From contig NZ_JACJRC010000019.1 in NCBI RefSeq assembly GCF_014697025.1, positions 1 to 64,000 on the forward strand: a DNA stretch of 64,000 bases. The letters run 5' to 3'. This document shows positions 15,912 through 23,567 of the stretch, in pieces. The stretch is from Alkalinema sp. FACHB-956. GTDB lineage: Bacteria; Cyanobacteriota; Cyanobacteriia; Leptolyngbyales; Leptolyngbyaceae. How positions within the stretch are numbered: the stretch's first letter is position 1; each line of letters opens with the position of its first letter. The notes beneath the pieces are model-generated. The model was not told where the DNA came from. It saw only the letters and a program-made list of their open reading frames with translations, and searched no databases. The translations under genes and the position numbers were made by a program.

Positions 15912-16459
15912 AGTTTTATAAGCATCAAGGGTTCTTATAGAGAGAAACCATGCACAAGCGGCCCTGTCAAACCATAGTGAGCAGAAACCTATAGCGAAGG
16001 GAAAACTTAGCTGGTTAAGGCTTGCGCTTAACCCAACTGCTCCGAGGAGATGGGCACGGCAGCTAGCAGCCAAGGATCAAAATACTTAGACTTATCGATA
16101 CGTTGCGATCGATGATCTAACACTTGTTTGACCAAGGCTCCCAAAAGCTTTGTGTAGCATACTCCATAACGCGATAGGTAAGATCACTCAGGCTAATAAA
16201 ATCTTGGTACTCGTGGACGAGCAGGAAATTATTAGCGATGGTGAGGCCGTTGTACAAGGGAACGCTGTCGAGCGAAGACAGCGCGTGTGAGGAGGGAATG
16301 TGAGATGCAAGGGTGTGGTTCTGACAACCACCCCTGACGATACAAAAAACCAATCACTAAAACTACTAAAACAGTAACCAATAATTGGCAAGAAATATCT
16401 GTTAACAAGTAACTGAATTAACGGAATTTCTGAAATTGACCTCGATCGCCCCCAAAATA
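15912..16459. other. Intergenic region upstream of two divergent genes
   Basis: A 548-bp stretch. A minus-strand frame (16117-16353) ends in a protein-like segment (LLVHEYQDFISLSDLTYR), loosely like the end of a HEPN/HepT-type protein, but its first 30 residues are not protein-like and no start site is convincing. It may be a gene remnant. Nothing else can be supported. Confidence 0.3.
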
Positions 16460-17967
16460 ATGATGCAAACCGATGTTCTCGTGATTGGTAGTGGGATTGG
16501 GGGGTTGGTAGCAGCAGCCCTCTTGGCACGTTACGGCAAGCGTGTCGTCGTCTGTGAGAGCCATAGTACGCCCGGTGGAGCTGCCCATAGCTTCTCTCGA
16601 CAGGGGTTTCACTTTGATTCAGGCCCCTCATTCTACTGTGGATTAGGGGAGCCTGCCTCTCTCAATCCGCTTCAGCAAGTGCTGAATCGCTTGGGAGAAG
16701 CGATTCCAACTACCCCCTATGATCCATTAGGACATTATCATTTTCCGGAAATGACGGTGCCAATTTACGGCAGTTGGGAGCGTTATCGATCGGAAATTGC
16801 TCAAATTACGCCTCAGGGCGCACAGGAACTCGATCGATTTCAGCAGCAATTACTCAAACTCTATGATGGACTCCGGAACATTCCAACCCTAGCCCTGCGA
16901 TCGGACTGGCAACTATTTCCCACCTTGTTCACCCAGTATCCCAAGGGCTGTCTACAACTCCTGCATCGATTGCCACTGCTTGGCTTGTCCGCAGGACAAA
17001 TCCTGGATCAAACGGTGCAAGATCCCTGGGTACGGCGTCTAGTGGATTTGGAATGCTTTCTGTTATCTGGCTTAAAAGCCCACGGTACGGTTGCTCCAGA
17101 AATGGCGTTTATGTTTGGCGAACGGGGACAATGGCCGATCGATTATCCCGTGGGGGCAGCCAAGCGATCGTGAACGCATTAGTCCGCGGTTTAACCAAGC
17201 ATGGTGGCCAATTACGCCTGAATGCCCACGTGGAAAAAATTCTTGTGCAGAATCGCCAGGTGCAAGGGGTTCAACTACGCAATGGGGAACGCATCCAAGC
17301 GGCCACTGTCATTTCCAACGCCACCCGTTGGGACACCTTTGGTCAGCTATTACCGCCCGATCGTTTACCCGATCGTTTGCGGCAACCCATTTTGCGAACC
17401 CCGGCGATCGCGAGTTTTATGCACTTGCACCTCGGGATTCGGGCAGATGGCTTAGAGGAGCTAACAGGTCACCACGTGGTCGTTCATGATGATCGACAAG
17501 ATATTACCGTTCCCGGCAATACCTGTATGATCTCCATTCCTTCCATCTGGGATCCGACCCTTGCACCACCGGGACACCACGGGATCCATGCCTATACGCT
17601 GGAATCCTACCCGCCTTGGCAGCAAACCGCAGATTATGTAACCCAAAAACGGCACAAAGCGGAAACCCTGTATCGTGCACTGGAACGGGTGATTCCTGAC
17701 CTGCGATCGCGGGTGGTTCTTGAACTGATTGGCACCCCATTAACCCATGCCCGCTACCTGCGACGATATCAGGGAACCTATGGCCCTGCGATCGCAGCGG
17801 GTGTAGGTCAATTCCCCAGTTGTCACACACCGATCCAGGGGCTGTACTGTGTCGGCGACAGTACCATGCCCGGAATTGGTGTCCCTGCCGTCGCTGCATC
17901 GGGCATCCTCTGCGCCAATACGTTGGTCTCTCCTACTCAAACCATGGCGCTTCTGCGAGAGTGCTAG
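16460..17967 (+). pseudogene. CrtISO/phytoene-desaturase-like FAD oxidoreductase, frameshifted
   Basis: Two overlapping frames together give a complete protein of about 500 aa. The first part (from ATG 16460) has the FAD dinucleotide motif VLVIGSGIGGLVAAALLARYG and PGGAAHSFSRQGFHFDSGPS; it stops at 17173 after WPIDYPVGAAKRS. The second part continues in the +1 frame with GGSQAIVNALVRGL and ends with the family C-terminal motif YCVGDSTMPGIGVPAVAASG. The join falls on a run of five G (17152-17156); six G would restore the frame. The family includes carotenoid isomerase CrtISO and desaturases acting on membrane carotenoids. It may be a decaying paralogue, a phase-variable gene, or a sequencing error in a homopolymer. 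The two halves show no other damage. Confidence 0.85.
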
Positions 17968-19427: not shown

Positions 19428-19697
19428 ATGGAAATGTTGGCCTTTGCGATACTCACTTGCTACTTCCTGGTCATGCCAATCCTATTTCTGAAATGGTTAG
19501 GCTTCTTTATGCAGGATCAGAACATGTCCAAAACTGAGAGAAAATTATCCTGGGCTGTTCTGACCATTGCGACGCTATTTTGGCCACTGACACTCCCCCT
19601 CGCCTATTTGGAACTTTTAGACAAGGTCAAGCGCTACGAACGGAGAGCCAAAATGGTGGGCGTGTCTCTCAAAACCCTATCTGACCCAACATTTTAA
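19428..19697 (+). CDS. Small two-helix membrane protein, unknown function
   Basis: An 89-aa protein starting at ATG 19428, with AGGAGA about 10 bp upstream. It has two hydrophobic segments (about residues 3-22 and 38-60, the second being LTIATLFWPLTLPLAYLELL) and a basic C-terminus (KVKRYERRAKMVG). It resembles the small conserved membrane proteins of cyanobacteria but I cannot name a family. A good terminator follows 40 bp downstream, which supports a real monocistronic gene. Confidence 0.6.
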   Translation: MEMLAFAILTCYFLVMPILFLKWLGFFMQDQNMSKTERKLSWAVLTIATLFWPLTLPLAYLELLDKVKRYERRAKMVGVSLKTLSDPTF

Positions 19698-19737
19698 GTT
19701 TGATAAGTTTGAAGAGGGTAACAAGATTTCTATTTAG

Positions 19738-19776
19738 ACTGCAACTGTGTCTAAGTGCACCTTTGCAGTTTTTTTG
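19738..19776 (+). terminator. Intrinsic terminator of the small membrane protein gene
   Basis: ACTGCAA (19738) pairs with TTGCAGT (ending 19769), enclosing a shorter GTG/CAC inner pairing, and is followed by TTTTTTT. It lies 40 bp after the stop codon. Confidence 0.75.
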
Positions 19777-20269
19777 TCAATTCCAACAGCCATAGGATGC
19801 CATACCTCTCGATATCACCCAGCCCTATCCTGTAATCCAAACCTCTCTCCAAATAGATGAATAATTGTAAACTACAGTTGCAAAGAAGTGTGAATTCAAA
19901 CGTTAATTCGAACTTAAGTTATACTGATCAACGATAGTTAACGGTTATTCTCTGTAAGTACGATTTATTTTTGTTGTTCAGTTAGCAGATTTAAAAACCT
20001 AGTCTGCACTAAAGTGTCAGATATTATCGGTGTGTTTCGGAGTGGATGTCTTAAATTGCGTCACAGGCCACTGAATGCGTGATTTAGGATTGTTGGTTAA
20101 AATTGTTTGAGTTGGTATCAATTTAGCTGCTTGACTGAATCATCGGATTGATTTGGATTGATTTGACTACCAGGAACTCTAGAGAGCTGTCGCATTTTTT
20201 GTAGAGATTGTCGAAACTAGCAACTAAAGCTAGTGTGCAATTGTGGGTAGCCTAATTTGAATCGTTTTT

Positions 20270-20402
20270 CCGCATGGAGACCCCATCGCATCACGATTCG
20301 GAACGGAGGAACCATTTATCCTTGGGGCTAATTCCAAGCTGCTTGGAAGAGACACCTTCCCGTCTTAGCCCGTCAGCTAACTCCGTCGGCCAAGGGAGGA
20401 GT
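20270..20402 (+). promoter_or_regulatory. Cyclic-di-AMP riboswitch (ydaO/yuaA type)
   Basis: The leader of the UspA-like gene has the conserved blocks of the ydaO class in order: ACGGAGGAACC (20303-), TTGGGGCTAATTCC (20322-), CTTCCCGTC, then CCGTCAGCTAACTCCGTCGG (20370-20389). ACGGAG (20303-20308) is complementary to CTCCGT (20381-20386), and TTCCAAG/CTTGGAA (20332-20348) forms an internal hairpin. The arrangement closely follows the Bacillus subtilis ydaO aptamer. In known cases c-di-AMP binding turns expression off. The aptamer ends about 60 bp before the start codon. The 20403-20464 segment probably holds the expression platform, but I see no clear terminator, so translational control is possible. 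The exact aptamer ends are approximate. Confidence 0.88.
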
Positions 20403-20464
20403 ACTCAGGACTCATCTTTCGACCCACCTCTCATCAGTCTGAAAATTTCGGAGAGGTTTAAGCT

Positions 20465-21133
20465 GTGAATATTTTATCGATGCTCGCTCGCCTTCAAGGC
20501 ACTCTGACGCAAACGGATGTAGAGCAAATGATTTTGCTGTCATCCGATCGCCGATCTAGCGTTGAAGGCAAGGATATCAACCTCGTGGTTGGTTATTCCA
20601 ATTCACCTAAAAGTCAGGCTGCGCTTGATCTGACCCTGTGGATTGCCCACCAAACGCGCTTAGCAACTAGTCAGTTGGTAACGGTGCAAGTTGTCTATGT
20701 GGTTGAAGATACACTGACGACTCCTTTCACTTCAGCGTCCGACTGGCGAACCATCAGTCGTGTTGATGCTAGGCGTGGTCAGGGCCTGCGTACTTCTGAA
20801 GCGGTTTTGAGTACATTGGGGGGAGACTCATCTTCCAGCCAGCGCCGCAGTAATGTTGCTGTCCTCGAAGCCCCCACCGATCGCATCCATCAATTTGAGC
20901 AAGCCGACCATATCCTTTGGCAAGCTCGATGTCTTGCAGATGAGTGGCGCGGCTCCCTGAAGACCCATCTTCGCTTTGGTCAAGTGGCTCAAGAACTCCG
21001 TCATGTCGTAACTGACGAAGAAGCAACGCTACTAATTGTGGGGTGTCAATCTACAAAAGCACCGCTCATTCGCCAATTAGGTAAAACGTTCCCTTGTCCC
21101 GTTTTAGGGGTTCCTGAGCTTGAGAATGAGTAG
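20465..21133 (+). CDS. UspA-like universal stress protein under c-di-AMP riboswitch
   Basis: A 222-aa cytoplasmic protein. INLVVGYSNSPKSQAALDL is the N-terminal beta-strand and loop of the Usp fold, and ATLLIVGCQSTKAPLIRQLG..CPVLGVPEL is the C-terminal part. The ATP-binding G-x9-G-S motif is not intact. The middle (about 80-140) is a longer, low-conservation insert. The start is GTG (20465), with GGAGAGG upstream. It follows a c-di-AMP riboswitch, so it probably answers cell-wall, osmotic or potassium stress. Universal stress proteins are themselves known c-di-AMP or ATP binders in some bacteria. The last codons are duplicated after the stop. Confidence 0.8.
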   Translation: MNILSMLARLQGTLTQTDVEQMILLSSDRRSSVEGKDINLVVGYSNSPKSQAALDLTLWIAHQTRLATSQLVTVQVVYVVEDTLTTPFTSASDWRTISRVDARRGQGLRTSEAVLSTLGGDSSSSQRRSNVAVLEAPTDRIHQFEQADHILWQARCLADEWRGSLKTHLRFGQVAQELRHVVTDEEATLLIVGCQSTKAPLIRQLGKTFPCPVLGVPELENE

Positions 21134-21148
21134 CTTGAGAAGGAGTAA
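21119..21148. repeat. 15-bp direct repeat x2 across the stop codon of the UspA-like gene
   Basis: CTTGAGAATGAGTAG (21119-21133) is followed by CTTGAGAAGGAGTAA (21134-21148). The first copy encodes the last four residues and the stop; the second repeats them in the same frame with a second stop. Confidence 0.88.
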
Positions 21149-21338
21149 TTAGCAAGTGAGCCCCCAGTGGATTGGAGCAACCCACTTCTACCATCCCGCT
21201 TCCAGCCAGCATCTCACTGCCATACTCACTACCCTTCCATACTCACTAACCTAAAGTGCTAGAGGCCGTAATCAGGCCCAGTTATTGGGCCGATTATGCC
21301 GCAATATTCAAACCACCTAGGCTCAAAAGACTCAGGCT

Positions 21339-21372
21339 TCAAGCGCCCTAGTATTTCAAGCGCCCTAGTATT
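21339..21372. repeat. 17-bp perfect direct repeat x2
   Basis: TCAAGCGCCCTAGTATT occurs twice without a gap between the Usp-like and large TPR genes, just beyond the 3' end of the TPR gene. Confidence 0.9.
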
Positions 21373-21383
21373 TATTTTGCAAT

Positions 21384-23567
21384 TTAAATTTGTTGCATCA
21401 CCTGAGGCAGTAAGGTCGCAGGTAGTTTAGATATTGCTATGTTTTGCCCAGGTAAGCCCAGTTGTTCGTGATAGGTGCGAACGACTTGTACAATACCGTC
21501 CAGTGCGGCCTCTTGGAGGTCTGCGTTGCTTCGCCAGCCGCTCCATGCCTGGAGGTGGTGATGGAGTGCGGCAGCTAAATATTCCGATCGCGTTGCCGTT
21601 TCCAAAGGTGCACGGTATTGGGTTACTGCTTGGTGATAAGCCGATGCGAGGTTGTGATGGGTTGCCCAAGGATCAAAATTGAGGCTGGTGCCGCCGGATT
21701 GATTTAGGCTTTCAACGGTATCCAGAGCAGCTAAATAAGCCACGATCGCGTCTTGGAGATAGGTCATTACATGATCGGGATGGGTGGTCGGATCGTTGGC
21801 TAGATGCCAGTAGGCCGTTCCCAAATTGTTTTGTGTAGCTGCATAGCCTGTAGGAACTACATCCGGTGTCCGATAGAGCAGGGCAACCCGATAGGCAGAA
21901 ATCGCTAACTGGAGCAAATTTTGGGAAGTTTGCTCGATCGTTGAATTAAGGTTTTCACATTGCGACAAATTCCAGTAAGCCGTCCCGAGATTGTTCTGAA
22001 TCATGGCATAGGGCAATGGCTGTTGTTCTGGATCATAAAAAGGTAAAGCAGCACTGTAAGCTGCAATTGCCTGCTGAAGGTTCGCAATGGGCTGTTGACA
22101 CTGGGCCAAGCTCCAGTAAGTAGTGCCTAAATTATTTTGAATGGCAGCATAGCGTTGGGGATCCTGGTCCGCAGTACGATGCTGAATGGCAGCTATATAG
22201 GCATAAATCGATCGCTGGAGATTTGCAGCGGGATCTCGGTATTGTGCTAAGTCTCCATAGGCTGCACCGAGGTTATTTTGCACCATGGCGTAGTGCAAGG
22301 GGGTGTCTACCGGGTTAATTAAGGCGATCGCGGATTCATAGGTTGCAATTGCTTGAACTAGGGGTTCCTCCGGTGAGACTGAGGCAGAACTCAAGCGGCT
22401 CAGTAACCAATATAGGTTGGCTTGATCATTCAGCACTTCTGAACTGGTCTGGGGATCCTCAGACAAATGTTCAAGGGCTTGGGCGTAGGCTTGAATGCCC
22501 AAGGTGAAGTGATCTAGGGACGGATCTTGGTCGGCTCGATCGCGATACCAATCCCCCAAATGGCGATAGGCAGCGGCTAGATCGGAATGCCTCAACGGCT
22601 GTTGGTGACGCAAATATTCGATTTGCTGGATCCAACAGTTGGGCTGTAGGGGGAGTTCTTCCTGGGAACTGACCTCCGTTTCGGTCTCGGTCTCGCCCGA
22701 GGGAGCTGTTAAGTAATCCGTTGTCGGTTCTCCCAGCCCATTGTCCGAACCTATTTCTTCCCTGGCGATGGCAGCACTCATGTCAGAGCTTTGCACAACG
22801 GCAGCAAGCACGTAATCCGCTAAATCGTTTTCTGCGCAGGTGAGCGAGGTCTGTGACGGGACTGCCGGGGTTCCTAGGCGGGGGGAATGGGTCGCGAAGG
22901 TGGCGGGGGGCGGTGGCGCAACCGTATCAACTGCGGAACCTGTTTCAGCCAGTTGGGGGAATGGATCCCCTTCAAATTCAAAAATCCCCGTATGCCAGCG
23001 CCAAAATTCGGGGGCAGATTGTTGAATCGATCGAATCCAGGGCCGAGAAACCCAGACCACTAGGCTCCAAGGCGTTTCGCCATAGCCACGACCAAAGGCC
23101 CGCAGATGGTTTAAAAACGCGCGCTGGATGTGGGCGGGTTGGCGCGTCAATTTTTCAATGCCCAGAATTTGGAAGACAGGATGGATCGGCCGAGTTGGCT
23201 GATGCTGTAACCATTGAGCGATTTGACCGCGTAAGTCGGGGTGGGCGGTTTTGAGGTTTAAGCTCACAAAAGAGATTGGCTCTACGGAAATCGCCAATTG
23301 ACTAGTCGCAGCCAATTCAGAAGAGTCCGAATGGGTGGGAATACATAAAAACTGACTCCCTGCATGGCGGGATTCCTGCTCTAGGAGGGCTGCCGTGCGA
23401 TCGCGCAATGCCATATCATCGCAAACGGCTATCAGAAGCTGACGACGCAAGCGTAACCCCAACGTCATCCGAAGACGCGCATACACCTGTCGATTGCGGC
23501 TGGATAGGGAATGGGCAATCTCAGTCACAGAAAGACCAGAATTAGAGTGGCGGTCAGCGAGTAGCAT
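21384..23567 (-). CDS. Large TPR protein with unknown N-terminal domain
   Basis: A 727-aa protein. Residues about 1-210 form a conserved-looking region (LGLRLRRQLLIAVCDD, PVFQILGIEKLTRQPAHIQRAFLNHLR, SLVVWVSRPWIRSIQQSAPEFW) that resembles an AAA-type fold without a visible P-loop. Residues 215-310 are low-complexity. Residues about 315-690 hold some seven TPR-like units of the AMVQNNLGAAYGDLAQY type, each about 55-60 residues, longer than the usual 34, so they resemble the extended cyanobacterial variety. No signal peptide or membrane segment is seen. It is probably a cytoplasmic scaffold. The start at 23567 is the only long choice. Confidence 0.7.
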   Translation of the reverse strand: MLLADRHSNSGLSVTEIAHSLSSRNRQVYARLRMTLGLRLRRQLLIAVCDDMALRDRTAALLEQESRHAGSQFLCIPTHSDSSELAATSQLAISVEPISFVSLNLKTAHPDLRGQIAQWLQHQPTRPIHPVFQILGIEKLTRQPAHIQRAFLNHLRAFGRGYGETPWSLVVWVSRPWIRSIQQSAPEFWRWHTGIFEFEGDPFPQLAETGSAVDTVAPPPPATFATHSPRLGTPAVPSQTSLTCAENDLADYVLAAVVQSSDMSAAIAREEIGSDNGLGEPTTDYLTAPSGETETETEVSSQEELPLQPNCWIQQIEYLRHQQPLRHSDLAAAYRHLGDWYRDRADQDPSLDHFTLGIQAYAQALEHLSEDPQTSSEVLNDQANLYWLLSRLSSASVSPEEPLVQAIATYESAIALINPVDTPLHYAMVQNNLGAAYGDLAQYRDPAANLQRSIYAYIAAIQHRTADQDPQRYAAIQNNLGTTYWSLAQCQQPIANLQQAIAAYSAALPFYDPEQQPLPYAMIQNNLGTAYWNLSQCENLNSTIEQTSQNLLQLAISAYRVALLYRTPDVVPTGYAATQNNLGTAYWHLANDPTTHPDHVMTYLQDAIVAYLAALDTVESLNQSGGTSLNFDPWATHHNLASAYHQAVTQYRAPLETATRSEYLAAALHHHLQAWSGWRSNADLQEAALDGIVQVVRTYHEQLGLPGQNIAISKLPATLLPQVMQQI

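Follow-up and report, generated by a model that had tools for sequence, protein, structure and literature searches.

A Predicted c-di-AMP Riboswitch Upstream of a Stand-Alone Universal Stress Protein Gene in Cyanobacteria

Introduction

The ydaO/yuaA riboswitch class (RF00379) is already known, and several described systems bear on the locus reported here. In Synechocystis, slr0753, which encodes a putative chloride efflux transporter, is a verified target of a c-di-AMP riboswitch (Mantovani et al., 2022, as cited in PMC10117731). A ydaO-yuaA element has been reported before a gene for a universal stress family protein in Leptospira licerasiae (PMC3493377); we found no covariation or platform analysis of it in the passages of that paper that deal with the element. 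The kdp leader of B. thuringiensis, which carries an element of the same class, ends in an intrinsic terminator (PMC6488665). On the protein side, the universal stress protein (USP) domain of KdpD is a c-di-AMP receptor, and its binding motif has been given as (A/G/C)XSXSX2N plus (Y/F) (PMC8214093).

Here we describe an RF00379 element directly ahead of a usp gene in a window of 64 kb, the whole stretch of DNA analyzed, from a genome of 6.16 Mb in 59 contigs. The element has the helices and conserved blocks of the ydaO/yuaA class and scores over the curated cut-off, but differs from the class as described in its target, a stand-alone Usp, and in having a ribosome-site hairpin and a proposed long-range helix (P0) specific to Usp leaders. 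It shares class and phylum with the Synechocystis riboswitch, and slr0753-like genes are also a main target in our survey; the slr0753-like gene of the present genome, however, has no detectable riboswitch. The Leptospira element is an earlier case of this class beside a USP-type gene, although its protein is homologous to both USPs and Na+/H+ exchangers, whereas the protein here is a stand-alone cyanobacterial Usp. In contrast to the kdp leader, the usp leader has no terminator. Our search found no prior description of a cyanobacterial Usp target or of its platform; it was made outside the gene lists of Nelson et al. (2013) and Block et al. (2010), in which a Usp target may be listed.

Results

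Identity and Boundaries of the Aptamer

RF00379 was the sole RNA family above threshold in the window (Rfam cmscan), matching positions 20269–20403 of the forward strand with 61.3 bits (E = 9.3e-12) against a gathering score of 38 bits. This match bears out an earlier note on the same DNA, which had proposed a c-di-AMP riboswitch from ydaO-type sequence blocks. All three blocks are present (ACGGAGGAACC from 20303, TTGGGG from 20322, and CAGCTAACTCCGTCGG from 20374), as is the complementary ACGGAG/CTCCGT pair to which the note had pointed; this pair is P2, and it shows compensating changes relative to the Rfam consensus gCGgGG/CCuCGc. With P1, P2, and the inner GGG/CCC helix all present, the RNA is by sequence an RF00379 aptamer, and c-di-AMP binding is predicted. 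A whole-genome search gave no second copy at E ≤ 1.

The 5′ end assigned by Rfam, and likewise by the earlier note, lies too far 3′. Relatives have in common the string GTGGGTxGCCTAAT just 5′ of the aptamer, which here occupies 20243–20256, entirely ahead of the Rfam start, and includes the conserved cyanobacterial block GGGTAGCCTAAT (20245–20256). The Rfam start itself sits in the loop of an inserted hairpin formed by GAATCG (20259–20264) and CGATTC (20294–20299). Of 156 scored hits, 46 have the block in the form GGGTnGCYTAA no more than 150 nt from P2, compared to a shuffle-based expectation of 0.5; in 33 of 46 block-carrying Usp-class hits, Rfam places the start 3′ of the block. By comparison, the true 5′ end would be at about 20243. 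Once the 5′ end is corrected to include the conserved block, P1 becomes GCC/GGC. Corrected boundaries and all other features are listed in Table 1.

Table 1. Coordinates of aptamer, expression platform, and gene features at the usp locus, with pairing partners and the basis of each assignment.
Feature	Coordinates	Strand	Partner or remark	Basis
GUGGGU 5′ flank block	20243–20248	+	Proposed helix P0 with ACCCAC (20422–20427)	
c-di-AMP (ydaO-type, RF00379) aptamer	20249–20392	+	Comparison-corrected boundaries	cmscan; GCCTAAT 20250–20256 conserved
P1, 5′ strand GCC	20250–20252	+	GGC (20388–20390)	Sequence; kept in relatives
P2, 5′ strand ACGGAG	20303–20308	+	CUCCGU (20381–20386)	Rfam alignment, compensating changes
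Aptamer inner helix GGG	20325–20327	+	CCC (20369–20371)	Rfam structure line
Small post-aptamer hairpin	20394–20419	+	GGGAGGAGU / ACUCAUCUUU; shortened form of relatives' longer hairpin	Alignments, by eye
Two-faced strand ACCCACCUCUC	20422–20432	+	ACCCAC (20422–20427) to 5′ block; ACCUCUC (20426–20432) to ribosome-binding site	
Shine-Dalgarno stretch GAGAGGU	20451–20457	+	Buried by hairpin with 20426–20432	
usp gene	20465–21133	+	222 aa, GTG start; stand-alone Usp without ATP Walker A motif	

Gene Context

The GTG start of usp lies 61 bases past the Rfam-called end of the aptamer. Since the preceding forward-strand open reading frame stops at 19697 and the next large one 3′ (21384–23567) runs on the opposite strand, usp looks like a single-gene transcript. 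Judged by Usp, the nearest named relatives are Leptolyngbyaceae and related filamentous cyanobacteria. Farther upstream, a forward-strand FAD-dependent oxidoreductase (CrtISO/CrtO-like by eye, 16436–17967) is spread over two overlapping frames, with the change of frame at a run of five Gs (about 17152–17156); the gene is either broken or affected by a sequencing error.

Recurrence of usp as a Riboswitch Target

A Usp alignment searched against 386 cyanobacterial genomes found the protein in 51. The riboswitch is directly upstream on the same strand for 40 of the 51 orthologues, and for six more it is upstream on the same strand within 0.9–8 kb (3.5–5.3 kb), in a gene string led by the riboswitch; the other five have none within 8 kb. 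At the level of genomes, the riboswitch is present in 50 of the 51 that carry Usp and in 43 of the 335 that do not (Fisher p = 1e-35, kinship ignored). Six Usp loci without a match in the Rfam gathering search (L069, L073, L076, L080, L095, and L110) gave no overlooked riboswitch at E ≤ 10 in the stretch of upstream DNA searched, so some orthologues probably lack one.

We also classed 169 readable cyanobacterial hits (99 from a phylum sample and 70 from the organism's own family) by the first recognized downstream gene, meaning one with relatives in the set. The commonest targets fall into three kinds: an NrtA/CmpA-like substrate-binding protein, Usp, and an slr0753-like transporter (labels other than Usp were given by eye from sequence). 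The usp gene comes first in 37 of the 70 family hits and 20 of the 99 phylum hits. Longer strings also occur. In four loci (L075, L088, L090, and L103) the riboswitch is followed by a 0.85-kb gene, the substrate-binding protein, a 0.84-kb gene, and lastly usp; the two genes of about 0.85 kb are assumed from their position to encode other ABC subunits. Elsewhere usp comes after an slr0753-like gene (L067) or ahead of a Kef-type antiporter (L106 and L109). Three loci (L098, L099, and L100) have two RF00379 elements in one string, one ahead of the transporter genes and the other directly before usp. Separately, RF00379 was seen before a sucrose-synthesis-like glycosyltransferase, so labeled by eye, in two genomes (G385:C1:1388245-1388423 and G191:C1:792353-792504).

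Because the pairing of riboswitch and usp recurs so widely, and because the leader has a conserved ribosome-site hairpin (see below), the Usp gene is, on this comparative evidence, very probably the riboswitch's target, as the earlier note had supposed; by the same recurrence across many cyanobacteria, Usp very likely belongs to the cell's c-di-AMP response.

Expression Platform

No terminator-like site was found in 19700–21450, and an intrinsic terminator was thus rejected for this leader. In an alignment of 53 distinct Usp leaders, 94.6% of 371 cells retain the pairing of ACCUCUC with GAGAGGU that covers the ribosome-binding site, compared to 35–58% for slid registers. Both sides have changed in 15 cells, one pair has U-A in place of C-G in 12 sequences, and the covariation score exceeds those of all 500 shuffles and of every slid control. 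For the Shine-Dalgarno (SD) core, the mean unpaired probability in Usp leaders is 0.13, vs. 0.22 when the upstream sequence is shuffled, 0.34 in the substrate-binding class, and 0.39 in the slr0753-like class. The purine tail 3′ of the aptamer was considered as the competing strand and rejected, with a mean of −7.2 kcal/mol vs. −10.1 for the ribosome site; it is also poorly paired in predicted folds.

The second element, P0, would join the block 5′ of the aptamer to the strand that also covers the ribosome site; the two helices overlap by two bases, the A and C at 20426–20427. Motifs were counted by pattern search in 57 Usp-class leaders and 104 other cyanobacterial RF00379 leaders. The GUGGGU block is present in 44 of the 57 and the blocking strand in 50, both together in 43; neither was found in the 104 leaders of other classes. 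In five further Usp leaders, the block could be recognized by eye with extra bases before GCC. Within the 43 leaders that have both motifs, 252 of 258 P0 cells are paired, a number that is not independent evidence because the leaders were chosen by motif. P0 varies little, and its covariation support is thus thin; class specificity and two compensated variants, GUGGGC/GCCCAC (G394) and GCGGGU/ACCC(U)GC (G352), are its better support.

Equilibrium folding of 40 leaders with the aptamer forced raised the mean probability of P0 from 0.25 to 0.43. In both states the ribosome site stayed largely buried, its mean unpaired probability being 0.22 without and 0.25 with the forced aptamer, and this folding did not settle the direction of regulation. 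For the leader in the window, forcing P1, P2, and P5 raised P0 from 0.18 to 0.77 and lowered pairing between the blocking strand and the SD from 0.52 to 0.33.

The Usp Protein

The usp reading frame matches Pfam PF00582 with 28.3 bits (cut-off 24). Its AlphaFold2 model has a pLDDT of 78, with low confidence at residues 92–129, and the top fold matches are USP structures. Motifs were checked on 43 aligned orthologues. The Walker A motif G-X2-G-X9-G-(S/T) is absent from all 43, G193-C194 being followed by no second Gly at the needed spacing, and the protein is accordingly outside the ATP-binding Usp subfamily as defined by that motif.

The USP domain of KdpD (PDB 7ji4) resembles this protein in fold (Foldseek rank 15, E = 2.4e-4) and likewise has no ATP Walker A motif; in Usp, A/G/C at 43, S or N at 45, S47, and an invariant Tyr at 78 correspond to positions of the KdpD motif. 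Differences are that the motif Asn is replaced by an invariant Ser (S50), that position 45 is more often Asn than Ser, and that Usp here stands alone and is not part of a kinase. Taken strictly, the KdpD-type motif, which was defined on Firmicutes KdpD, has its A/G/C43, S45, S47, and Tyr78 in 18 of the 43 orthologues and its Asn in none. The partly kept motif and the USP fold make c-di-AMP binding by Usp worth testing, no more.

Other c-di-AMP Components in the Genome

Two domains related to c-di-AMP turnover are encoded in the genome, one of diadenylate cyclase (PF02457, E = 1.6e-37) and one of the 7TM-HD phosphodiesterase type (PF07698, E = 1.7e-19). Usp of the riboswitch-linked type is present once, and the riboswitch-linked substrate-binding protein has only distant relatives here (27–38% identity). 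There is one slr0753-like gene, 69% identical to the copy in a relative; a hidden second riboswitch ahead of it was rejected, as RF00379 gave no match there even at E ≤ 10. The locus of this gene also has a sub-threshold match to the NsiR1 RNA (L253, 1441–1490; 31.3 bits, cut-off 39).

The suggestion in the earlier note that KtrAB, about 6 kb away, takes part with Usp in the c-di-AMP response is not supported: there is no RF00379 at KtrAB, and KtrAB and usp are not neighbors in relatives. KtrA matches were found in 42 of 42 family genomes, weak ones counted. In relatives, the KtrA orthologue and the Usp riboswitch are on separate contigs or lie hundreds of kilobases apart, and they are not close in the complete genomes checked (e.g., 5.46 vs. 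5.18 Mb in G403, 0.81 vs. 1.34 in G400, and 4.12 vs. 6.42 in G409). With this distance in relatives and no conserved synteny, we rejected KtrAB as a regulon neighbor and regard its closeness to usp as local chance; c-di-AMP may still target the KtrAB proteins themselves.

Discussion

We consider it probable that this RF00379 riboswitch controls translation of usp, and we infer that the platform works by translational control. For the sign, we lean toward c-di-AMP turning usp off. In this model, c-di-AMP would fill the aptamer and hold helix P1 shut, and closed P1 would favor the adjacent P0 helix (GUGGGU with ACCCAC). P0 runs directly into the ribosome-site hairpin, so that the two could stack and keep translation low. 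When the ligand is absent, P1 and P0 would open and the hairpin could yield, and Usp would be made at low c-di-AMP. It is class precedent that places ligand-off ahead of ligand-on; the coupling and its sign are inferential, since the ribosome site is predicted to be mostly buried in both states.

The opposite sign, in which c-di-AMP turns usp on, fits the same leader anatomy and is a less probable but credible alternative. Ligand-stabilized P1 would nucleate P0, which would draw 20426–20427 and the neighboring strand off the hairpin, the two helices having those bases in common. Folding of the window leader, with its rise in P0 and loss of SD blocking, goes in this direction, as do some relatives (e.g., G197). 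However, mean SD accessibility is nearly constant over the 40 leaders, and with P0 formed the hairpin can retain five of its seven pairs.

Action of the aptamer on transcription or RNA stability instead of translation appears improbable. The terminator of the B. thuringiensis kdp element and the long hairpin found 3′ of the aptamer in relatives would be in keeping with it, but the region around usp has no terminator-like site, and the conserved element sits at, and covaries with, the ribosome-binding site. Still more remote is a decaying remnant that has lost ligand binding: the element is a single copy, with a bit score in the lower half of cyanobacterial hits, a leader of 61 nt where most of the family has 100–180 and nearly all relatives have longer ones, and a non-standard P1 pair in Rfam's alignment, but once the 5′ end is corrected P1 reads GCC/GGC, and nothing is missing from the conserved blocks, the ribosome-site hairpin, or either P0 strand.

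A further, rather doubtful idea concerns the protein. Usp might itself act as a receptor for c-di-AMP and dock onto transporters of the same regulon, namely those adjoining usp in other cyanobacteria (the NrtA/CmpA-like ABC system, the slr0753-like transporter, and the Kef-type antiporter). If this were true, c-di-AMP would act on both the synthesis of Usp and the Usp protein, a closed loop.

The ribosome-site hairpin and the long-range helix are concrete targets for mutation and make translational action by this class directly testable. With the recurrence described here, a stand-alone Usp joins transporters among the few cyanobacterial targets of c-di-AMP riboswitches, and the locus offers a candidate for a role of Usp proteins in c-di-AMP signaling.
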